From a virus, in the IMG/VR virus record IMGVR_UViG_3300046794_000044, positions 1 to 43,104 of that record: a DNA stretch of 43,104 bases; one strand, given 5' to 3'. A model generated the notes under the pieces. It was given only the letters and a program-made list of their open reading frames with translations, did not search any database and was not told where the DNA came from. Positions 7,691 through 38,676 of the stretch are shown one piece after another; position 1 is the stretch's first letter, and every line of letters starts with the position of its first letter. Both the position numbers and the translations under genes were made by a program.

Positions 7691-7854
7691 TTGGAATCCT
7701 TGCTGATGAGGCGAGCGAACGCTGCGCCCAGTTGAGAACCGAGCACGCGCTCAGCGATGTACTTCGAGGAGGACGGCACACGCACAGTCCGGCCGTTCGG
7801 CTTGACGATGGTGTGCGATGTCACGTTGGTTTCGATGCGACGCTTCACGCTCAC
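7687..7854 (-). CDS. Small basic early protein (55 aa)
   Basis: GTG at 7854 overlaps the previous stop as GTGA, the usual coupling in this operon; a longer upstream frame overlaps the neighbour and is rejected. Reads VSVKRRIETNVTSHTIVKPN, then VRVPSSSKYIAERVLGSQLG. Basic start, helical end. Function unknown. Confidence 0.65.
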   Translation of the reverse strand: MSVKRRIETNVTSHTIVKPNGRTVRVPSSSKYIAERVLGSQLGAAFARLISKDSK

Positions 7855-8225
7855 AGTTCCACCCGCTCGGCAGGCCGATGGAAGAACTGCTCTTTGAACT
7901 CGCCCCACTTCGTAGCAGCAGGACCGTACAGCTTGCCGCTCAGTTGTCCGAACGAATCGGACTTCGCCACTGCGATGCAGTCTTGGCCGAGCTTCTGAGC
8001 CACGCCGTACGCAGCGTTGTCGAGCGCCATCTTGGACTCGTACCGCACAGCAGCCACGAGGGTTCGCTCGGTGCCTTGCGCATGGGTCACGTCACGCATC
8101 TCGCCATGCAGCAGCATGAAGCCAAGGCGGTTCAGGTAAGAGACAGTGCGAAGCACCGTGTTATCGCCGGTGCCATCAGCACGAGCGAGTCCAACGTTAA
8201 TCAGGAGGTTCACAGCAGGCTCCAT
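7851..8225 (-). CDS. Hypothetical early protein (124 aa)
   Basis: Two starts are possible. The ATG at 8225 has a poor ribosome site. A GTG four codons later, at 8213, sits six bases after GGAG and may be the real one. The protein is mixed alpha/beta with no membrane segment, cysteine cluster or catalytic motif. It contains VRYESKMALDNAAYGVAQKL and a polar C-terminal part (FKEQFFHRPAERVEL). Function unknown. Confidence 0.7.
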   Translation of the reverse strand: MEPAVNLLINVGLARADGTGDNTVLRTVSYLNRLGFMLLHGEMRDVTHAQGTERTLVAAVRYESKMALDNAAYGVAQKLGQDCIAVAKSDSFGQLSGKLYGPAATKWGEFKEQFFHRPAERVEL

Positions 8226-10699: not shown

Positions 10700-10951
10700 T
10701 CAGACGCGCACTTCTGCGCCGATCAGGGTGTCGAGAACATCCTGCTCAACTTCCACGACATTCTCAGCATCCTGCTCATGCAACCACTCCCGAACGCTGT
10801 AACGCGAGGCGGCAGTCAGTTGCTTACTGGTCTTCATCCAACCGCGAACCGGATCAAAAGCAGCCACGACATCAGCGTAGCTGAACAGGACTTTCACGCC
10901 ATTGCGAAAGGTCAGTTCTCGGCACTCGCCAGTTATCTTGCGCAGCTTCAT
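10700..10951 (-). CDS. First early gene, small conserved-type phage protein (83 aa)
   Basis: ATG at 10951 preceded by GGGGTAGGTC. The sequence starts with ITGECRELTFRNGVKVLFSY, then TSKQLTAASRYSVREWL. Small proteins with this strand-rich start (F..G..VLFSY..PVA) and a Y/S..I..WL second half are widespread in phages with no known function. It is the first gene read from the tandem host promoters, separated from them by a leader of more than 550 bases, and is followed at once by a terminator. Confidence 0.75.
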   Translation of the reverse strand: MKLRKITGECRELTFRNGVKVLFSYADVVAAFDPVRGWMKTSKQLTAASRYSVREWLHEQDAENVVEVEQDVLDTLIGAEVRV

Positions 10952-11513: not shown

Positions 11514-11541
11514 ATTCTACAGACATTCAACCGTCTGTCAA
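11514..11541 (-). promoter_or_regulatory. Early host promoter A
   Basis: Minus strand: -35 TTGACA (11541-11536), 16-base spacer, -10 TAGAAT (11519-11514). Best match to the sigma-70 consensus of the four tandem copies and nearest to the genes. The 17 bases just upstream of the -35 repeat the block GGGACAGTAAATAG plus three bases seen at copies C and D. Confidence 0.75.
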
Positions 11542-11602
11542 CTGCTATTTACTGTCCCGATTCGTTACTGCCTGAACCGTCCTGCCTTGCTGCTAGGTTC
11601 CC

Positions 11603-11631
11603 AGTGTCGCAGAACCCGTACCGCTTGTCAA
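11603..11631 (-). promoter_or_regulatory. Early host promoter B
   Basis: Minus strand: -35 TTGACA (11631-11626), 17-base spacer, -10-like GACACT (11608-11603). The -10 is weak against consensus but identical in copies B and C, inside the shared context GACACTGGGAACC. The upstream block is a variant, GGGACAGAAAAGG. Confidence 0.5.
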
Positions 11632-11792
11632 CTGCCTTTTCTGTCCCGATTCGCTGCTACTTGAACCGCCCTACTCAGTGTCTCGCCACTGTCGCGCCGT
11701 TCGTAACGCCAGAACGGTAAGACGTTTAAGGTGCCGCTCTAGTCTTACTGCCGACTGAGTGCCTTCCTTGGTGCTTCGTGCTGCTGGTTCCC

Positions 11793-11821
11793 AGTGTCTC
11801 TGAACCTGTCCTGCCTGTCAA
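11793..11821 (-). promoter_or_regulatory. Early host promoter C
   Basis: Minus strand: -35 TTGACA (11821-11816), 17-base spacer, -10-like GACACT (11798-11793). Upstream block GGGACAGTAAATAG is identical to copies A and D. The -10 region lies in GGTTC-N11-GAACC, a short inverted repeat that could bind a regulator. Confidence 0.5.
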
Positions 11822-11916
11822 CTGCTATTTACTGTCCCTGCATCCTCAGAACCTTACCGCGCTTTCACCCTTGGGTTACTCGGCGTTCTCGTGCTCTGCG
11901 TGCTGCATTGGTTCCC

Positions 11917-11945
11917 ATTAGACCGGAACATTCTGCATGTGTCAA
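11917..11945 (-). promoter_or_regulatory. Early host promoter D
   Basis: Minus strand: -35 TTGACA (11945-11940), 17-base spacer, -10 TCTAAT (11922-11917; five of six to consensus). Upstream block GGGACAGTAAATAG as in A and C. It is the most distal of the four from the genes. Confidence 0.65.
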
Positions 11946-12068
11946 CTGCTATTTACTGTCCCCGCTACTCATTCCTCTCAGAGATCAATCCTGCTGGGCT
12001 GTCCCAGTCACTGCGCTTCTAGGTCACTGCCTGTCCGCGTCTCTTGTGTCTGTCAACCGATGGAAAGG

Positions 12069-12103
12069 ATTGTAGGGTGTGCGTAGTTCAGGGTAATCCC
12101 TGA
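12069..12103 (-). promoter_or_regulatory. Possible operator overlapping a promoter
   Basis: TCAGGG-TAAT-CCCTGA at 12088-12103 is a perfect 6-bp palindrome with a 4-base centre. On the minus strand a good -10, TACAAT (12074-12069), lies so that the palindrome covers the -35 position, which itself is poor (ATTACC). The layout suits a repressed or activated promoter, but is judged by eye only. Confidence 0.35.
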
Positions 12104-12129
12104 TATAGCGCCAAAGATGCCTCCTGTTC

Positions 12130-12480
12130 GCCTCTTAGGTGCACTTGCTGTCCATCTCTTGTCCTGCTCTCCCTTGTCCTGTCTGTATCCTGTCCATTCG
12201 GTCAGATTCTTACCGTTCTAGCAATGGTCTGTTGCTGGGTTCCTGTGGCTCTCCTGTCCTCTCATCTCCCAGGGTGATTGTGTGCTGGGTTCCTGTGCTG
12301 TCCCTGTGTCCTCTCCTGTGTCCTGTTCTCCTGTGCTGTCTCCGTCCGGCCGTCCTGTGCTCTCCTGTCGGCTGTCCCTGTCTCCTGTGTCTCTCTGTCG
12401 GCTGTCCTGTGCTGTCGTGGTGTGTCGTGCTCCTGTCACGGTCAGGCTAGGCTCCTGTCCTACCGTGCTGGCAACAGATC
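12130..12480. repeat. Pyrimidine-rich tract of degenerate CTGTCC/TCCTGTG repeats
   Basis: Plus strand is almost purely C, T and G, made of overlapping units such as CTGTCC, TCCTGTG and CTCTCCTGTCGGCTGTCC; the unit GCTGGGTTCCTGTG occurs twice. The minus-strand RNA would be purine-rich (GGACAG, AGGAG). The open frames across it are low-complexity and I do not call genes. It lies directly downstream of the phage promoter at 12492-12511, so it would be transcribed as a leader. Possible roles are an origin, a binding array or part of the virion end. Confidence 0.6.
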
Positions 12481-12491
12481 GAACGCTCTCT

Positions 12492-12511
12492 GTCTTTTGG
12501 TCCAGCGAAAT
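12492..12511 (-). promoter_or_regulatory. Phage RNA polymerase promoter 1
   Basis: Minus strand ATTTCGCTGGACCAAAAGAC, one of four identical 20-mers. It matches the SP6 promoter at 12 of 20 positions, including ATTT, the TG at 8-9 and AGA at the start site. By that alignment RNA starts at G12494 and runs leftwards through the purine-rich tract towards the early genes. It resembles T7 phiOL in lying next to the probable genome end. Confidence 0.8.
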
Positions 12512-12931
12512 TGAAATAGGACAGATACCCGCACACCTGCGCTCCGGGTTCTGCGACGCCTAGCACCACGTTATCCCTCCTGATACCCTGTGAGCCGTGC
12601 GCCTATGCCACTGCGACGCGTCCACAGCCCCTCTGCGCCCCTGTTGCCCCTGTCCGGGTACATGCCCCGCCTCCAGTGTCCCCAGCCTGTCCCAGCCCCT
12701 GTGGCGCCCCTTGCTGCGTATGCGCTGTCACCTGCCGTGCGCAGGCAGAGACACAGAGGAGCATTCGCGTGCGTCGTGCGTGCGGCGTGTGCGTGCGCGT
12801 CAAGAGGGCTGCATGGGGGCGCGGGAGCGCGGGCGGGCGGCGTAAGGCCCCGCAGAAATCTGGATCATTTTCTGGCCGAGTGGCCGATGCGAGGGTGCCG
12901 GTGTTCGGTCCGGTGGGACAGCGAATGGCAG
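12512..12931. other. Non-coding GC-rich stretch between phage promoter and integrase promoter
   Basis: No gene with a ribosome site is visible on either strand. Around 12770-12845 there is alternating purine-pyrimidine sequence (GTGCGTGCGGCGTGTGCGTGCGCG) followed by G-rich runs. The orientation of the GGACAG hexamer flips within this stretch. A physical virion end or direct terminal repeat could well lie here, but nothing in the sequence proves it. Confidence 0.5.
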
Positions 12932-12960
12932 TTGACGGGGACAGTTATTTCTGGGACACT
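12932..12960 (+). promoter_or_regulatory. Probable integrase promoter
   Basis: Plus strand: TTGACG (12932-12937), 17-base spacer, GACACT (12955-12960). Spacer and -10 equal those of early promoters B and C. The -10 lies inside the first 18-bp direct repeat, so any protein binding the repeat would affect transcription of the integrase. Confidence 0.45.
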
Positions 12961-12970
12961 ACAGGGACAG
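12953..12970 (+). repeat. 18-bp direct repeat, copy 1
   Basis: GGGACACTACAGGGACAG, repeated exactly at 13116-13133. The two copies flank the attP core. Candidate arm-type site for integrase or a directionality factor. Confidence 0.65.
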
Positions 12971-13038
12971 TGAGCCTCCGGGACAGCGTGGTGGGTAGTC
13001 GGGATCGCCCGCCAGTGGCCGTTGAGGGCGCAAGAGGC

Positions 13039-13086
13039 GCCTTCACACGGCAGGGGTCACTGGTTCGATCCCAGTACCGCCCACCA
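13039..13086 (+). other. attP core: 3' half of tRNA-Val(CAC)
   Basis: These 48 bases fold as the 3' half of a tRNA: anticodon loop TTCACAC (anticodon CAC, Val), 3' anticodon stem GGCAG, variable loop GGGTC, T stem-loop ACTGG-TTCGATC-CCAGT, 3' acceptor strand ACCGCCC, discriminator A and CCA. The 5' half is missing: no D arm, and no proper acceptor partner. A tRNA 3' half beside an integrase is the classic attP, which rebuilds the host tRNA gene on integration. Identity with the host tRNA appears to begin at the 5' edge of the anticodon loop. Confidence 0.9.
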
Positions 13087-13115
13087 GCTTCTCAGGGGAT
13101 TCCGCCAACAGCGCG

Positions 13116-13133
13116 GGGACACTACAGGGACAG
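13116..13133 (+). repeat. 18-bp direct repeat, copy 2
   Basis: Exact copy of 12953-12970, 29 bases beyond the attP core and 28 bases before the integrase ATG. Together the copies bracket the core asymmetrically, as arm sites do. Confidence 0.65.
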
Positions 13134-13161
13134 CGGTGGTCAACCGAAGACCGGGGAAATC

Positions 13162-14166
13162 ATGGGGACAATCTCTCAACGCCCTTCTGGCCGCTGGCAG
13201 GTGAAGATTCGCCGCGCTGGAGCCAAGCCACTCAGTGCCACCTTCGAGACGAAGGCAGACGCACAGAAGTGGGAGCGGGACCAAGAACGCGGTATCGACC
13301 GAGGACTGATCGGGACACTCGATGCGTCCCCGCTCCTCCGGGATGTTCTGGCCCGCTATCTCAAAGAAGTCTCTCCTCTGAAGAAAGGTGCATCCGTCGA
13401 GGCTTGGAGGCTGAATGCCCTCCAGAGGTCTTGGATCGCCCAGCAGCCGCTCGGGAAACTCACCAGTGCGATGGTAGCCAAGTACCGCGACGAGCGGCTC
13501 AGCGGGGCTGGGGACAAGCCTGTAAGTGGGTCAACCGTCAACCGGGAACTGAACTTGCTTCACCACGTCCTCGAAGTGGCGCGGAAGGACTGGGCCATCG
13601 GTACTGGCACCAATCCGGTGCATGATGTTCGCCGCCCGAAGCACAGCCCTGCTCGTGATCGTCGGCTGACGGATCAGGAGAAGGCGGTCCTTCTGGAAGC
13701 CTGTCGGCAGTCCCAGAAACCGTACGTCGCTCAGGTGTTCGAGCTTGCACTGGAGACTGGGATGCGACAAGGGGAGATCGTGAACCTCCGGGTGGAGGCG
13801 GTCGATCTGGAGGGATGTGCGGTCAGCCTCAAGGCGGGAGCCACGAAGACGGACGAAGCCCGGACGGTTCCTCTCTCCAGCCGAGCGGTGGCGATCCTGA
13901 AGGAAGCCATCGGTGGACGGAAGGAGGGCCGGGTGTGGCCGGGGCTGACCAGCGAAGCGATAAAGCGGGCCTTCATCCGGGCGAGGGACAGGGCCGGTCT
14001 GGAGGATGTGACCTTCCATGACTCCCGGCACCACGCCACTACCCGGTTCGTGGAACTGGGTCTGACGGACACCGAGGTCATGAGCATCACCGGGCACAAG
14101 ACCCAGTCTATGATGCGTCGGTACACCCACCTGCGGGCGAAGGACTTGGCGAAGAAGCTGGGCTGA
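13162..14166 (+). CDS. Tyrosine recombinase (phage integrase)
   Basis: 334-residue site-specific recombinase for integration at the tRNA-Val(CAC) gene. The N-terminus (1-50) looks like an arm-binding domain, then a core-binding SAM-like domain (55-150) and the catalytic domain. Catalytic residues are all visible: Arg202 (ETGMRQGE), Lys229 region, His286 and Arg289 (FHDSRHH), His312 (TGHKT) and Tyr321 (RRYTH). I start at ATG 13162 after GGGGA; the frame is open upstream but runs through attP and the repeats, so that part is not coding. It is the only plus-strand gene and overlaps the lysis-end gene by 59 bases tail to tail. Confidence 0.96.
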   Translation: MGTISQRPSGRWQVKIRRAGAKPLSATFETKADAQKWERDQERGIDRGLIGTLDASPLLRDVLARYLKEVSPLKKGASVEAWRLNALQRSWIAQQPLGKLTSAMVAKYRDERLSGAGDKPVSGSTVNRELNLLHHVLEVARKDWAIGTGTNPVHDVRRPKHSPARDRRLTDQEKAVLLEACRQSQKPYVAQVFELALETGMRQGEIVNLRVEAVDLEGCAVSLKAGATKTDEARTVPLSSRAVAILKEAIGGRKEGRVWPGLTSEAIKRAFIRARDRAGLEDVTFHDSRHHATTRFVELGLTDTEVMSITGHKTQSMMRRYTHLRAKDLAKKLG

Positions 14167-14467
14167 CAACCGGCGCGCACAGGGCGTACAGGTGGTCCAG
14201 CAGGTAGCAGAACGGTTCGTCCGAGGCGGAGCACACTGGGTGTCCGATGTGCTCCATCACCCGGATGGCGGCGTGGCCTAGCTCGTGGACGAGCGTAGCC
14301 AGCGACCGATCCAGCACCGCGACGTAGAGCACGCCCCGGTGCATCCAGCAGACGCCTGCCGCAGGCAGCGCATCAACGCCGCATCGAGCGGCCCAGTTCG
14401 CAGTCTCCTTCTCGCCGGTCAGCAGCCGCAGCGTCAGCCCGTACGGGTCGATGCGGAAGGTTCTCAC
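14108..14467 (-). CDS. HExxH putative zinc peptidase-like protein (119 aa)
   Basis: GTG at 14467 overlaps the Rz1 stop as GTGA. It carries LATLVHELGHAA with His61, Glu62 and His65, the zinc-binding signature of metallopeptidases; a third ligand could be Glu83 or His91. The last 20 residues are Ser/Pro-rich and lie over the end of the integrase gene. It is last in the lysis operon. It might cut peptidoglycan or a host protein, or act as an ImmA-like protease on a repressor. None of this is shown beyond the motif. Confidence 0.7.
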   Translation of the reverse strand: MRTFRIDPYGLTLRLLTGEKETANWAARCGVDALPAAGVCWMHRGVLYVAVLDRSLATLVHELGHAAIRVMEHIGHPVCSASDEPFCYLLDHLYALCAPVVSPASSPSPSPAGGCTDAS

Positions 14468-14709
14468 TTCCGTGGGGCGTAGAACGCCCGCAGCCCGGTC
14501 AACTGGTCGTTGCAGTTGTCGAGCGAGGTCTGATAGTCATGGATGGACTGCACCAGCCCGCCGAGCGTATGGTCAGCGGGAGGTGCTGGCTCCGGGCACG
14601 CCTGAAGCAGGGACGCCGGAGGCTGCATGGGGACGGTTGCCGTACAGGCCGTCAAACACGTCATCAGGCACAGCAGTGCTAGTCCAGTCCGGGTGTGCTT
14701 GAAGCGCAT
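14464..14709 (-). CDS. Outer-membrane spanin (Rz1-like lipoprotein)
   Basis: 81 residues with a lipoprotein signal: [18 protein letters not shown], then LTAC with Cys22 as the lipidated residue. The mature part starts with a Pro-rich section ([14 protein letters not shown]), typical of Rz1. The gene overlaps the Rz gene in another frame, the usual nested spanin layout. Together the pair fuses inner and outer membranes in the last step of lysis. Confidence 0.85.
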
Positions 14710-14935
14710 GTGTCACCTTCGTCTGGTTGGTTGAGGCACGAGCCTGCGTGACCGCCTGCGCCGTCTTGTAGGCGTCGAAGGCGGCTTGCGAGGCCACGAG
14801 GGAGGCGGTGAGCGTGGCAACCTGTTCGGAAGCCTTCTCAGCGCGTGTGTGTTCTACGTAGACCGCGGTCCCCAGCCCGCTCAGAACGAGCAGGCCAGCG
14901 AGGGCGATCAGCAGTCGGTCGATCAGCGGTGTCAT
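14573..14935 (-). CDS. Inner-membrane spanin (Rz-like)
   Basis: 120 residues. The ATG at 14935 overlaps the endolysin stop as ATGA; a longer upstream frame is inside the endolysin gene and is rejected. An N-terminal membrane segment ([20 protein letters not shown], about 8-27) is followed by a helical periplasmic part with [16 protein letters not shown]. The C-terminal end overlaps the start of Rz1. Membrane anchor plus periplasmic helix plus a nested lipoprotein identify an i-spanin. Confidence 0.85.
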
Positions 14936-15387
14936 TTGATGCACGTCTCGTATTCGGCCTGACGGCGGCGAACGAGGCCGGGGAGTTCCTGGCCCTTGGC
15001 GTACACCCACTTCAGCAGTTCCCGGCAGGCACCGAGGTGGTCGCCAGCGTTGAACTTGCGCAGCAGCGTGGACGAGGCGAGGTTGCCTCGGCCCACGTTG
15101 AAGGTGAAGTCGGTGAGTGCCGCGAGTTCGTTCGCGTTGATCGGACCTTGGGTGAGGTCGAGCACCGCGCCCATCGCCACGTTAGAGTCCGCGCTGAGTA
15201 GGTCGGTGCACTCCTTCGGGGAGTACACACGGCCCACGCGAACGTCCGCGCCGGTGTGCCCGGTGCAGGCTGTGGGGATGCCCACCGGGTCGCGGTAGGC
15301 TACGGGCTTGGTGCCTTCGAAGTGAAGCGTGAGGGCTGTGGCCGCTGCCGCCGCCAGCGCGATCACGCGAGCAGCGACGCGGGCCAT
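14932..15387 (-). CDS. Signal-anchor (SAR) endolysin, lysozyme family GH24
   Basis: 151 residues from ATG 15387, which overlaps the previous stop. The start is a weakly hydrophobic Ala-rich segment, [18 protein letters not shown], the look of a signal-anchor-release domain. The catalytic triad Glu24-x8-Asp33-x5-Thr39 is intact ([17 protein letters not shown]), as in T4 and P21 lysozymes. It cleaves the glycan backbone of peptidoglycan. With a SAR domain it can be exported by Sec and wait in the membrane until the holin depolarises it. Gly/Cys content near residues 41-45 (CTGHTG) may also matter for control. Confidence 0.9.
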
Positions 15388-15622: not shown

Positions 15623-17416
15623 TTAACGTCGGTACTTGTTGAAAGCGGAGCCACGGCTGGATGCCTGCGGTCCCCGGAGGTTTTGGTTACGGCCGAGCGG
15701 GTTCTTGATCCACTCAGCGAACTCCTTCTCACGAACGGCCTGAATGGCGCGCTCCTGATTCACACCCATCTGCTCGACCCAGTACCGGCAGGCACCCGCG
15801 AGGGCATCAAGTCGGTCGTCGTGCTGGAGGGCGTTCTTCTCACGCGTGATGTGCGCGATCTGGTGAAGGAGGGAATACGATGGTCGGCGTTCAGCCGGGT
15901 ATTGCTGGAGGGACTTCTCCTCGTCTCGCATGATCTCGTCGTTGAAGACGAGCGAGCCTCGGGCGATGATGGGTTCGAGAACGTCGATGATCCGAAGCTC
16001 CTTCTGCCCGCTCTCCCACGTCTCCTCAATTGCACAGCCACCACCCACGGTCTGCGGGTAGCCTGCGCGGAGGAGCGGAAGCCACGTATGGAGGTACGCC
16101 CCGTTGCCGAAGTTCTTCTCGACAAGGATGCGGTTCACCTTCCACCGGGCTGCGATGCCGGTCAGCTTCTCGAAGTTCGCACTGTCGAAGCCGCCCTTCA
16201 CGCCACCGACTTCCAAGGCGTACAACGTGCCGTTCAGGAAGCCGACGACGGCGTATCCAGTCTCGTCGCCGTTCTTGCCGCCGCCTGCCGGGTCAACGTA
16301 CATGACGATGCCTTGCAGGCCGGTGCGATCCGGTGACACGCTGGAGGGAATGCCGAGGGTGTACGTGGTGCCGTTGATCGAGTACTTGATGACCTCGTGA
16401 ACGAGGACACCGGGAGTGACGGTCAGCGGGTACGCGTCAGCCAAGCGCATGGACAGAATCTTCGCGAGGCGCAGAGGGAATCGTTCCGAGTCCGCGAGCT
16501 TCGTGTTCAGCATGTGCTGAAGCTGGAAGTACGCTGGGCCTTGGTCGTTCTCCTTCTTCGCGAGGAACTCCTCGTTGCCTGCTGGTAGTTCGAGGTCCAC
16601 CGGCTGGCCTTGGTCGCCCAAGATGCCGCCGCCGATGCCAAGGCTAGGGTCTGCCTTCAGCTTCCGCACGATCATCGGGGCGAGCATGTCGCCGTAGTTC
16701 TCCAACTGCTTCAGCGTCGGGTAACGACCAGTCCAGATGCGGACGGTGTAGCCACGACCGGGTAGCGTGTTGTAGATCGAGTTGATCGACTGCGGTGTGC
16801 CGAGGTAGATGATTCGCCCGGTGGAGCAGATAGAAGGGAAGTCACGAGTCAATTGAAGCAACGCCTGCCGTTGGTGCTCGGTCAGGGAGTTCTTCGCACT
16901 CTCAATGTCGTCCGCGATAAGTAGGTCGGCGCGCTTACCCTGCAAGTTGCCGGTGACGCCTACGCACGCCACGGATGGCGACTTATCAAGACCCTTGAGG
17001 GTGTGATGCACGTCGAATGCTTCGACCGATGTCCGGTCGCCTGCGTTGCGGTCAGGGCGTAAGCATTCCAGAATGTCCATCGTCATGATGACGCGGACGA
17101 CTAGGGTACTGATTTCGTTCGCTTGTGTTCCACCGGCTGAGATAATCAGGATACGGTGCTTCGGGTCGTGGATCAGACACCAGACTGCGAACAGTGCGCA
17201 GATGGTGGTCTTAGCTTGGCCCCGCTGAGCCTGCACCATGAGGTAGTGCGGGCCGAACTCCATGAACTCAGCGATGTCGGCTTGAACCTCCGAGAGGGAG
17301 AAGCCTAGCTCGATCATCCCGTCTTCGCAGAAGGGAATGAAGTGAGGGTAGGCACCCTGAAGGATTTCTAGCTGCGCGATGCGCTGTAATGCGGCCTCTA
17401 ATGACTCACGAGCCAA
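15623..17416 (-). CDS. Terminase large subunit
   Basis: 597-residue packaging motor and nuclease. Walker A is AQRGQAKT (Lys69) and Walker B is LLIADDIE; the C-terminal RNase H-like nuclease begins YVDPAGGGKNGDETGYAV with its metal-binding Asp. Length is near T7 gp19 (586). The start is TTG at 17416, overlapping the small-subunit stop by 11 bases; no ATG or GTG lies nearby in frame, and TTG gives the normal N-terminus length. In this group the enzyme cuts concatemers to give direct terminal repeats. Confidence 0.96.
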   Translation of the reverse strand: MARESLEAALQRIAQLEILQGAYPHFIPFCEDGMIELGFSLSEVQADIAEFMEFGPHYLMVQAQRGQAKTTICALFAVWCLIHDPKHRILIISAGGTQANEISTLVVRVIMTMDILECLRPDRNAGDRTSVEAFDVHHTLKGLDKSPSVACVGVTGNLQGKRADLLIADDIESAKNSLTEHQRQALLQLTRDFPSICSTGRIIYLGTPQSINSIYNTLPGRGYTVRIWTGRYPTLKQLENYGDMLAPMIVRKLKADPSLGIGGGILGDQGQPVDLELPAGNEEFLAKKENDQGPAYFQLQHMLNTKLADSERFPLRLAKILSMRLADAYPLTVTPGVLVHEVIKYSINGTTYTLGIPSSVSPDRTGLQGIVMYVDPAGGGKNGDETGYAVVGFLNGTLYALEVGGVKGGFDSANFEKLTGIAARWKVNRILVEKNFGNGAYLHTWLPLLRAGYPQTVGGGCAIEETWESGQKELRIIDVLEPIIARGSLVFNDEIMRDEEKSLQQYPAERRPSYSLLHQIAHITREKNALQHDDRLDALAGACRYWVEQMGVNQERAIQAVREKEFAEWIKNPLGRNQNLRGPQASSRGSAFNKYRR

Positions 17417-19998: not shown

Positions 19999-20016
19999 GG
20001 TTGCTCCTGTGTTGTT

Positions 20017-20036
20017 GTCTTTTGGTCCAGCGAAAT
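20017..20036 (-). promoter_or_regulatory. Phage RNA polymerase promoter 2 (tail fibre and lysis)
   Basis: Identical 20-mer to 12492-12511; expected start G20019. It lies directly upstream of the tail fibre ATG and would drive fibre, holin, terminase and lysis genes. Confidence 0.85.
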
Positions 20037-32566: not shown

Positions 32567-32609
32567 TGAGGACTCCTATTTTTGAGATTGGCGGATGACA
32601 CGGTTGTGT

Positions 32610-32629
32610 GTCTTTTGGTCCAGCGAAAT
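32610..32629 (-). promoter_or_regulatory. Phage RNA polymerase promoter 3 (capsid)
   Basis: Identical 20-mer to the other copies, expected start G32612, 46 bases before the capsid ATG. Equivalent of T7 phi10. Confidence 0.88.
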
Positions 32630-36146: not shown

Positions 36147-36164
36147 TGCGGCTCCTTTGTGTGC

Positions 36165-36184
36165 GTCTTTTGGTCCAGCGAAAT
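36165..36184 (-). promoter_or_regulatory. Phage RNA polymerase promoter 4 (head genes)
   Basis: Identical 20-mer to the other copies; expected start G36167, running left into the 53-residue gene and the portal operon. It lies directly after the polymerase gene, as the first structural promoter. Confidence 0.87.
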
Positions 36185-36193
36185 CAGAATCCG

Positions 36194-36213
36194 AATTCAA
36201 TGGACCAAAAGAC
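36194..36213 (+). promoter_or_regulatory. Divergent promoter variant, antisense to RNA polymerase gene
   Basis: Plus strand AATTCAATGGACCAAAAGAC matches the phage promoter at 17 of 20 positions, with identical bases 8-20 and changes at 2, 6 and 7. If active it would start at G36211 and read antisense through the polymerase gene. Two of the changed bases lie in the recognition half, so strength is uncertain. Confidence 0.5.
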
Positions 36214-36222
36214 AGAGAAACG

Positions 36223-38676
36223 TCAGGCGAAGAAGAACGCGGAGTTTTGAACCTCAGCCAGATTGAGATCGCCCCGGCTCGGCAAAGCCGGGAGGTCTTC
36301 GAACTGATTGCGGAAATCAGCGAGCGGATCATTGCTTTCATACATCTCCACGAATGTGCGGCGAATCGCCTCGTACAGCTTCTGCGTGTCAGCAGCGTGA
36401 GTGCCGTAGTCGTCGTGAATCATCGCCAGTGAGTTAATCCCCAGCCGTTTGCACTCCTGAACGGTCAGGGTCAAATGTGCAGCGTCCATGCTGTGAACGA
36501 AATTCGGAGCCATGCCGTTCTTGTGGCGTCGCCCGTCCTGACAGTCACCGCGCATTGCCACTCGAATCTGCGTAGCGCCGAGGAGCTTGGTGTTGACGTG
36601 GATGAAGTCCATCTCCGCATACTCCTGAGCGACGATAAAGCCGCTGGGTGCGGTCCACTTGATCTGTTGCAAGCCTCGCTTGATGAGAGCCGACGCAGCC
36701 TTCTGAAGCCACGCCATTGCAGAAGCAGCCGCAATGACTACCTCTCCAATCGAGTCCCACACAAGATGAGACAAGAATTCAGATGCGTGGCGGTACTCAG
36801 TAGTCTCGAACTCGGTAGCCTCTCCCTTCCTCAGATAATCCTGAACGATGAACTCAGCACAGGAGAACCGAGTGGAACCGTACGGCAGAGTCATGACAGA
36901 CCGCTTCACGATGCTCCGGGTAATGCGATGGTTGAACCACTTGTCCCGGAAATACAACTTGCGCTCGTCTGCGGTGAACAATTCTCGGTCGGACAGTTTA
37001 GCCATCACTACGTCAGCTACTCGCTGGTAGATGTCTTCTGGCTTAATACCGGGCATGAGATTAACCGCCCGTCCTCCAACAGAATCTCGAAGCATTGCCG
37101 AGAAGTGCTGAAGGCCGTTGCAACTACCGTCGAGGCCAACAGCGAGGCGAGATACGAAAGCCTCCGGTCCACGTCGCCACTCGGCATACTCGAAGCACCA
37201 CGCCAGAAACTGAATGGGCGCATCAGCCTCCCTCCATCCGGCGTTTCCAACAGGATCACTGGCAAATGCGATGATGTGTCTTTCATTGTCCTCCACCCAC
37301 TTAATGCGGTCAGCGAACGGAACCTTGTCCACGCCGAACCTGTTTGCGCCTGCAATGGTGAACCAGCGCACCGCCTCTGGCGTATCGAGCGGCTTGCCTT
37401 CTGCGAAGTGCAGGAGCGCCTTCTGGAGGTCGCTGCCCTGCGGTGAGATGCCGGTCGTCAGTGCGTACAGTCGGCCCCGGAAGTCCGCCTGATACATGAA
37501 GTGCAGCACCGGGTACTCCTTGAACTTGTCCGCGATCCGGGTAGCCATGTAGAAGCGGCCCCACTTCGCACCGCGCAGCTTGCGCTCCGTGTGCCAGTCC
37601 GCGACCCGGCGTTTCCAGTTCGAGAACTCGCCCAGTTCGTCGCCGGTCATCTCCTCCTTCTTCATCTCCTCGGTCAGCCAGTCCGGCTTGGCTGGCTTCG
37701 GAATCTCTGCCTGCGAGAGAATCTCGTCCATGTCGATGCCGTGGCGAGCGCAGTCACGCACCGCGTCCAGCACCTTCGTATTCACCGCCCACTTCACCTG
37801 CTGCAAGTGGTTCACGGCTTCCATCACGGTCGGCATGTCCATCGCCTTCAGGTCGTCCAGCGACGTACGCTGGCTAGTGAAGTTGATGATCGCGGGGCAC
37901 TGCGCCCGCATCTGCGGCGTGTGGTATCCGCCGTCCGTGGTGCTGACCCAGTCCTTCGGCTGCTCGATGAACGGAAGGGCGTACGGCATCGTGTAGGCCA
38001 CCGTGGAGCGGATGGACTCGACCACCTTCATCGCGGTAGGCGACAGGATGATCGGCATCTGCGTGACCGCTGTGCGGCCCTTCTTGACGACGATCTTGTC
38101 CACCTCGACCAGACCCAGCAGGCGAACCTGCTCGATCAGCCACAGCGCCACCTGCTCGCGGTCGCCCGCCGTCCAGATCGGAATCTCAACGTCATGCGTG
38201 TTCGCCGCGTTGCGGATCACGTTCACTCGGTGGCTCGTGGACTTCGACTGCTTCTTCTGGAGGTTGTGCAGCAGGGTCCAGTAAATCTCGGGCTGGATGT
38301 GCTCGAACGTGGCGAGCACCAGTTCACCGTAGATGTCGCGGCCCATGAGGCGGGCCACCTCCCGCGAGTCCTGCGTCGCGTCCTTCAGCAGCGACACCAG
38401 GATCGAACGCACTGCGATGTGCGCCACGGCTCGCGGGTCCAGCGGCTTCAGGAGCGACACATGCGCCGCCCTGCGGCCCGCCTTGCCTGTGCTCATGACC
38501 TCAGCTTCGATCACGTCAGCCAGCGGCAGGAGCCACCGGCGGTACACCGCTGCCGCGTACGGGTTGGTGTCCGCATGTCCCTCCTGCTCGCGGCGATCCA
38601 TCATCGCCACAGCGCGTGCTCGGCCTGCCTCACGAGTCTCACGCTCAAGTTCAACCTGCGTACGCGGCGTCGTCAT
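36223..38676 (-). CDS. Single-subunit DNA-directed RNA polymerase (T7 family)
   Basis: 817 residues (T7 gp1 has 883). Motif A LAVGLDGSCNGLQH with catalytic Asp516; motif B KRSVMTLPYG with Lys591 and Tyr599, spaced exactly like Lys631/Tyr639 of T7; motif C MAPNFVHSMDAAH with Asp731. The protein ends SAFFFA, matching the essential aromatic-Ala C-terminal foot of T7 RNAP. ATG overlaps the ligase stop as TGATG. It transcribes the head, tail and lysis genes from the four identical promoters. The late location, after the replication genes, is the phiKMV arrangement. Confidence 0.98.
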   Translation of the reverse strand: MTTPRTQVELERETREAGRARAVAMMDRREQEGHADTNPYAAAVYRRWLLPLADVIEAEVMSTGKAGRRAAHVSLLKPLDPRAVAHIAVRSILVSLLKDATQDSREVARLMGRDIYGELVLATFEHIQPEIYWTLLHNLQKKQSKSTSHRVNVIRNAANTHDVEIPIWTAGDREQVALWLIEQVRLLGLVEVDKIVVKKGRTAVTQMPIILSPTAMKVVESIRSTVAYTMPYALPFIEQPKDWVSTTDGGYHTPQMRAQCPAIINFTSQRTSLDDLKAMDMPTVMEAVNHLQQVKWAVNTKVLDAVRDCARHGIDMDEILSQAEIPKPAKPDWLTEEMKKEEMTGDELGEFSNWKRRVADWHTERKLRGAKWGRFYMATRIADKFKEYPVLHFMYQADFRGRLYALTTGISPQGSDLQKALLHFAEGKPLDTPEAVRWFTIAGANRFGVDKVPFADRIKWVEDNERHIIAFASDPVGNAGWREADAPIQFLAWCFEYAEWRRGPEAFVSRLAVGLDGSCNGLQHFSAMLRDSVGGRAVNLMPGIKPEDIYQRVADVVMAKLSDRELFTADERKLYFRDKWFNHRITRSIVKRSVMTLPYGSTRFSCAEFIVQDYLRKGEATEFETTEYRHASEFLSHLVWDSIGEVVIAAASAMAWLQKAASALIKRGLQQIKWTAPSGFIVAQEYAEMDFIHVNTKLLGATQIRVAMRGDCQDGRRHKNGMAPNFVHSMDAAHLTLTVQECKRLGINSLAMIHDDYGTHAADTQKLYEAIRRTFVEMYESNDPLADFRNQFEDLPALPSRGDLNLAEVQNSAFFFA

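Follow-up and report, generated by a model that had tools for sequence, protein, structure and literature searches.

Tandem early promoters of an integrase-bearing T7-like phage share a six-letter box with its putative attachment region

The stretch of DNA analysed here, hereafter the window, is a virus record of 43,104 bases (IMG/VR IMGVR_UViG_3300046794_000044; G000 in our set) from a T7-like phage that is read on the minus strand and carries a tyrosine integrase on the plus strand (Table 1). Besides a single-subunit RNA polymerase and a large terminase, the window encodes DNA polymerase, helicase, and primase-like genes. By DNA similarity, Burkholderia phage Paku comes nearest among cultured phages (49% of a 23-kb query matched at 76%); it too has an integrase, and a tRNA-Ser fragment is annotated at its right end. 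Searching the window for Rfam families and tRNAs gave no hits, and scans of genome collections for prophage hosts found no match. The reading frame at 7851-8225 (minus) weakly matches the S-adenosylmethionine lyase family (E 0.0034, below the cut-off) and possibly encodes an anti-restriction protein. Another at 14108-14467 (minus), between the spanin and integrase genes, encodes a small, metallopeptidase-like HELGH protein, counterparts of which were seen only in G011-G014 among the 15 records compared.

Table 1. Features of the window referred to in the text, with positions counted from its first base.
Feature	Position	Strand	Details
First early gene	10700-10951	minus	83 aa; phrog_5643; considered and disfavoured as box binder
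Early promoter 4 (predicted)	11514-11558	minus	box GGGACA 11553-11558; -35 TTGACA 11536-11541; spacer 16; -10 TAGAAT 11514-11519
Early promoter 3 (predicted)	11603-11647	minus	box GGGACA 11642-11647; -35 TTGACA 11626-11631; spacer 17; -10 GACACT 11603-11608
Early promoter 2 (predicted)	11793-11838	minus	box GGGACA 11833-11838; -35 TTGACA 11816-11821; spacer 17; -10 GACACT 11793-11798
Early promoter 1 (predicted)	11917-11962	minus	box GGGACA 11957-11962; -35 TTGACA 11940-11945; spacer 17; -10 TCTAAT 11917-11922
Putative phage-RNA-polymerase promoter	12491-12510	minus	TTTCGCTGGACCAAAAGACA; upstream of early promoters; position like T7 phiOL
Box pair, 11 bp apart	12677-12693	minus	TGTCCC at 12677 and 12688 on the plus strand
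Predicted integrase-directed promoter	12915-12960	plus	GGCAG 12927-12931; -35 TTGACG 12932-12937; spacer 17; -10 GACACT 12955-12960
Direct box pair, 11 bp apart	12953-12970	plus	GGGACACTACAGGGACAG; boxes at 12953 and 12964; exact repeat of 13116-13133
att core candidate, 49 bp	13038-13086	plus	ends as tRNA 3' end with CCA
Second direct box pair	13116-13133	plus	boxes at 13116 and 13127; between att core and integrase start
Tyrosine integrase	13162-14166	plus	334 aa; PHROG integrase on longer ORF 12676-14166; PF00589; AF2 model; lambda Int match
Large terminase gene	15623-17416	minus
Single-subunit RNA polymerase gene	36223-38676	minus

The first early gene and the integrase are separated by a 1.6-kb gap without convincing genes, in which TTGACA occurs four times on the minus strand, each time preceded by GGGACAG, an A-rich stretch, and GCAG. 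An earlier note made from the sequence had described these as four tandem early promoters that share the sequence upstream of the -35 and differ at the -10, and this description stands: a 23-mer, GGGACAGTAAATAGCAGTTGACA, is identical in three copies, the fourth copy is slightly diverged (GGGACAGAAAAGGCAGTTGACA), and the -10 elements do differ, GACACT alone occurring twice (Table 1). The 23-mer has exactly three occurrences and no further one in the window even at three mismatches, the expectation for such a triple is 0 (100 shuffles), and it is the sole 23-mer found at least three times in the window. TTGACA itself is not enriched (11 seen vs 15.3 expected), and a fifth minus-strand copy at 12051-12056 lacks the block. 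The unusual features are the clustering of TTGACA and the common flank, not its abundance. The further claim that sharing is limited to the upstream part did not hold in full, as GGGAACC directly follows the -10 in three of the four copies, and over a 45-nt stretch that spans both boxes the identity between copies 2 and 3 is 82%. A GGTTC-N11-GAACC inverted repeat over the -10, noticed by eye in promoters 1-3, was dropped as an operator candidate; it is missing in promoter 4. The block region, used as a DNA query against phage records, returned no match. In two relatives, L019 and L020 (~14555-15022), a lipoprotein-like gene (an ORF in L020) lies between the integrase/att region and the early promoters, and no counterpart of it was seen in the window.

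The repeat TTTCGCTGGACCAAAAGACA has four near-identical minus-strand copies in the window, one listed in Table 1 and the others at 20016-20035, 32609-32628, and 36164-36183, and is probably a phage-RNA-polymerase promoter. A copy with three mismatches is found on the plus strand at 36195-36214. A phage-polymerase promoter was rejected as an explanation of the block, since this genome-wide repeat is a different sequence. The window reads, in order, phage-polymerase promoter candidate, four sigma70-type promoters, a leader of ~550 nt, and the first early gene. In T7 the order is phiOL, A1, A2, A3, and gene 0.3, and because the order of elements is identical, the block can be taken as the equivalent of A1-A3. 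Its tandem -35/-10 layout with spacers of 16 or 17 nt, inside the 16-18 nt range and upstream of the first early gene and after the phage-polymerase promoter candidate, is that of T7 A1-A3-like promoters, which are likewise tandem sigma70 promoters ~90-190 bp apart that precede a long leader. The block is, on this sequence evidence, a set of four tandem predicted early promoters for the host RNA polymerase, in place of T7 A1-A3.

Relatives were gathered from viral contigs with one pattern scan and two scans by protein, and carry two to four such promoters each. A search of 23 records for integrase orthologues found them in 13; G008 and G010 have a distant integrase only, and no integrase was found in JG068, Cd1, phiKMV, P14, Brevundimonas AA, G006, G007, or G009. 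T7 is not known to carry an integrase, and it, Andromeda, and others were classed as integrase-less from general knowledge. JG068 has been reported as obligately lytic (PMC3765740).

From phage to phage, an orthologous promoter retains its -10 and spacer (TCTAAT/17 in the first, GACACT/17 in the middle, and TAGAAT/16 in the last promoter of the window, L006, L012, and L014), and the upstream block is near-uniform within each phage, as would be expected of a block that responds to a trans-acting factor. Over the 11 nt before the -35, within-phage identity is 0.82 in the window, 0.88 in G001, 0.82 in both G005 and L049, and 0.76 in Paku, all integrase-bearing. The values are 0.30 in JG068, 0.27 in Cd1, 0.47 in phiKMV, 0.23 in P14, 0.27 in Brevundimonas AA, and 0.18 in Andromeda; T7, with a pairwise identity of 0.52, has promoters that are far less alike upstream than those of the window. 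The integrase-less G007 (locus L052), with 0.61 for 11 nt and 0.43 for 22 nt, shows the opposite pattern, in which the -10 boxes are nearly identical (0.92) and the upstream sequences are not. Several integrase-bearing records score low (L012 0.48, L006 0.53, L019 0.62, L020 0.45, L047 0.45, and L048 0.39) because unrelated or variant promoters entered through the automatic rule; for the counts of box positions given below, early promoters were hand-picked. Four integrase-less records have no pairwise value, namely Lullwater, P26059B, and BL198, each with no promoter, and PollyC, with one. Pasto, taken as a MarR-type control, had no early promoters under the promoter rule used.

A comparison of the block among related phages, as the earlier note had proposed, brings out a six-letter word at a fixed distance from the -35 that switches type in concert between lineages. 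The word is GGGACA in the window, G002, and G015; GAGACA in G001, G011, G012, G013, and G014; GCTACA in Paku and G005; and GGTACA in G003, G004, and G017. In 13 of the 14 phages that have an orthologous integrase, the phage's own box stands in promoter orientation at 35 of a total of 38 early promoters, starting either 16 nt (11 times) or 17 nt (24 times) before the -35 and thereby located at about -52 to -46. The box versions of other lineages are found at none of the 38. Of the remaining three promoters, one in G013 has GAGGCA, one in Paku has GATACA, and one in G002 has GGGACA at that position but inverted. No label permutation out of 20,000 reached the observed box match, a figure that is not a probability because the relatedness of the phages is uncontrolled. 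Within the 26 nt upstream, each early promoter has a single box rather than direct repeats spaced by a turn, and no box is seen at the early promoters of those integrase-less relatives that were examined. Box labels were assigned with knowledge of both the promoter and the att words, and att counts alone would give the same label (12 phages and L023). L023 (G015), examined after the tables were made, fits, with GGGACA 12 times in its att region and in both promoters, and G016, the fourteenth integrase record, is no clear case.

GGCAG-TTGACA precedes the integrase without an upstream box in G011, G012, L006, and L015, and in G017 it takes the form GGCAGTTGACA, followed by CACACT and GGGTACAA. 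Since GGCAG is found boxless at integrase promoters, it would belong to the promoter and the box to a regulator, and GCAG-TTGACA is best described as a predicted extended -35 that is separate from the six-letter box. The earlier suggestion of an operator or UP-like element overlapping the -35 survives in its first half: there is partial support for an operator that binds a protein immediately upstream of the -35, as this fits the comparative data better than a UP element or a bare promoter, and the supposed overlap gives way to a box distinct from GCAG and the -35.

The same word recurs in the att/integrase region, a link that is new and was not foreseen in the earlier note. In each of 12 phages the own box occurs there 4 to 12 times, more often than any of the other three words, and it is over-represented relative to the rest of the genome in all 12 (p for the best upstream word 8.5e-5 to 2.5e-14). 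Its ranks among the 2080 six-mers of the att region are 1, 1, 1, 2, 2, 3, 3, 3, 5, 5, 10, and 34, the last two being those of G003 and G004. The counts include a box at the start codon of the window integrase, which the ranking excludes. Box pairs on the same strand at 11 bp number 18 and are found in 11 of the 12 phages; any other spacing occurs at most three times.

Boxes flank the putative att core of the window on both sides, and this core is identical to that of G001 (L046:98-146, other strand). Those at 12915, 12938, and 12953 overlap the predicted integrase promoter, GGGACAGCGAATGGCAGTTGACG-N17-GACACT. The integrase promoters of G003 and G004 have boxes over their spacer and -10, which suggests self-repression of the integrase, as has been reported for KplE1 intS. 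In the window type of arrangement, the predicted integrase promoter lies across the candidate att core from the gene, and the core is a tRNA 3' end that points at the integrase. The core is oriented oppositely in Paku, G003, G004, G005, G013, and G014, in which the integrase promoter stays beside the integrase.

The real start of the integrase is most likely at 13162. The catalytic motif of lambda-type integrases comprises R, K, HxxR, H/W, and Y, and the corresponding R202, K229, H286, R289, H312, and Y321 are invariant in 13 integrase sequences. An AlphaFold2 model has a predicted beta-beta-beta-alpha N-terminal domain and aligns with lambda Int (1z1b_A) over residues 2-334 (Z 18.2, rmsd 15.3, 301 residues, with the domains displaced). 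The Pfam arm domain was not listed for the window integrase in the domain search, and is sub-threshold in relatives (E 0.009-0.14). In Mantel comparisons of 12 phages, which omitted G015 and G016, box type correlated with the integrase (r 0.45 for the core and 0.38 for the N-terminus); the partial correlation with the N-terminus given the core was 0.08 (p 0.21, not significant). For the first early gene, r was 0.19 and the partial correlation given the integrase N-terminus was -0.22 (12 phages). As far as these sequence comparisons go, box type tracks the integrase and not the first early gene. The integrase-bearing phages form one clade, and the presence of the integrase and that of the box may therefore be one event.

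Our preferred reading, to which we give a probability of roughly one half, is that the boxes are putative operators for a protein of the integration module. This would most likely be the integrase, which would use its putative N-terminal arm-binding domain to occupy the attP repeats, the integrase promoter, and all the early promoters, and so dampen early transcription. Both the binding of integrase to the boxes and a repressing, as opposed to activating, effect of that binding are inferred. Each early promoter would thus possess an upstream operator, GGGACA, of the same sequence as the arm-type repeats of the phage's own attP. Early in infection integrase would be scarce and the early promoters would fire from their perfect -35. 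Accumulating integrase would then fill the attP arms, limit its own promoter, and, at the boxes around -50, hinder RNA polymerase at every early promoter. The supply of lytic proteins, phage polymerase included, would drop through box occupancy, and integration would thereby be coupled to the damping of early (lytic) transcription and to self-regulation of the integrase. In the window type, integration would place the integrase gene downstream of a host tRNA gene, because its promoter lies across the core and the tRNA 3' end of the core points at the gene.

A lysogen of the window phage is plausible because an integrase is encoded. Whether all early transcription could be shut off together in it, as the earlier note supposed, is a stronger proposition. 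It would make the catalytically intact integrase the lysogenic repressor that silences all host-recognised early promoters, with recombination itself locking the switch and no separate repressor; we consider this possible, if rather doubtful. Genes of the classical CI-like or MarR-like repressor kind (HTH_3 or MarR) were not recognised in the window. HTH_3 and HTH_17 were found in none of 14 records, integrase-less JG068 among them, and MarR_2 was not found in 13 of the 14, with no hits in the window; all three were discarded as dedicated repressors of the window phage. That no repressor gene was recognised does not mean that a repressor is absent. The sole MarR-like winged helix among the 14 records is a weak one in G017 (G017:C1:36086-36238; E 3.8e-6, under the cut-off).

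Instead of the integrase, an excisionase or regulator of the Apl/Cox type, that is, a recombination directionality factor, could bind attP and the early promoters from an unrecognised small early gene, possibly the first one. Apl of phage 186 is described as doing so: it binds six-bp operators that form direct repeats at a spacing of 10-11 bp, both at attP and at the early promoters (between pR and pL). In P2-like phages, the early operon is said to begin with the gene for such a factor (PMC7498355). The phages studied here resemble the Apl system and that of the Cox proteins of P2-like phages, as so described, in that one short word forms direct repeats at attP, spaced by about a helix turn, and recurs at the early promoters. 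The first early gene is also present in 12 of 12 integrase-bearing records and in none of 3 integrase-less ones. We nevertheless judge this unlikely, as box type does not follow that gene. G001 and Paku are 89% alike in it, yet their boxes differ at two positions, and G001 and G011 are 44% alike in it, yet have an identical box and more similar integrases. Its product has a predicted bbbbb-a-b-a fold and not a winged helix, and the model gave no PDB match at E<=0.001. Distant relatives of the product occur in unrelated phages, e.g., P-SSM2, which we take to be strictly lytic. This wide distribution, the lack of co-variation with the box, and the predicted fold also disfavour the first early gene as a repressor. 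The described Apl/Cox binder is a small helix-turn-helix excisionase, whereas none was recognised in the window phage (HTH_17 being found in none of the 14 records). The boxes stand on either side of the att core, and the early promoters studied here, unlike those described for Apl/Cox, have single boxes and are arranged in tandem rather than face to face.

Ordinary sigma70 promoters with a UP-like A-rich tract, made similar by duplication or gene conversion, could also account for the block if the likeness to att were low-complexity sequence. The similarity of copies 2 and 3 across both boxes and the A-rich tract adjoining the -35 agree with such an origin, as do ACAGGA-like words, which are abundant in the intergenic region and outrank the box in some att regions. 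This explanation is improbable in our view. Duplication would have to accommodate orthologous promoters that keep their own -10 beside a box that is uniform within each phage, a constant part that contains G and C (GNNACA, GCAG) next to a variable A tract, and a box that switches type with the att repeats at exactly the same spacing. Similarly improbable is that the box is the site of an activator (integrase or some host factor) that raises early transcription: a fixed distance upstream of the -35 is compatible with activation too, and GACACT, a weak -10 that matches TATAAT at 3 of 6 positions only, would need it, but all 38 mapped promoters have a perfect -35, the -10 of T7 A1 (GATACT) is similar, the boxes over the spacer and -10 of the G003 and G004 integrase promoters point to occlusion, and the switching between lineages speaks against a single host factor.

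Operators for the integrase would have partial parallels in other phages. IntS of KplE1, like other autoregulated integrases, has arm sites that overlap the integrase promoter beside a tRNA att site, and is described as negatively autoregulated, acting on the integrase gene itself and not on lytic early promoters (PMC2951348). MrpR of SPbeta is presented as a lysogeny repressor with a tyrosine-recombinase fold that binds a short repeated element around the prophage and has no recombination activity (PMC10516654); the window candidate, by contrast, has the catalytic residues and would be a working integrase. SroF of phi3T is a parallel of the same kind, and its structures are among the fold matches of the window integrase model. 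LUZ100 and Pasto are likewise T7-like phages with a tyrosine integrase, for which a MarR-like helix-turn-helix gene directly before the integrase has been proposed to act at the phage-RNA-polymerase promoter (PMC10134795). In the records compared here, unlike in LUZ100 and Pasto, MarR_2 occurs in only one of 14 (G017), and weakly. The arrangement would resemble the Apl, MrpR, and LUZ100/Pasto systems in its working and fits none of them exactly.

The proposed role of the boxes bears on how T7-like phages without a known repressor could stay silent as prophages. It offers a specific candidate, with immunity groups that would be predictable from the six-letter word, and, if true, would place an active integrase among the repressors that have a recombinase fold. 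It also suggests a route by which the loss of one module could make a temperate phage virulent. In the open-access literature, as covered by titles and abstract openings, we found no description of integrase-type sites at the early promoters of T7-like phages. The window further contains, upstream of its early promoters, a simple T-poor tract with ACAGGA/GACACAGG words (12100-12480, minus), and CCTGTC-rich tracts that resemble it are found in the att regions of G013 and G014.
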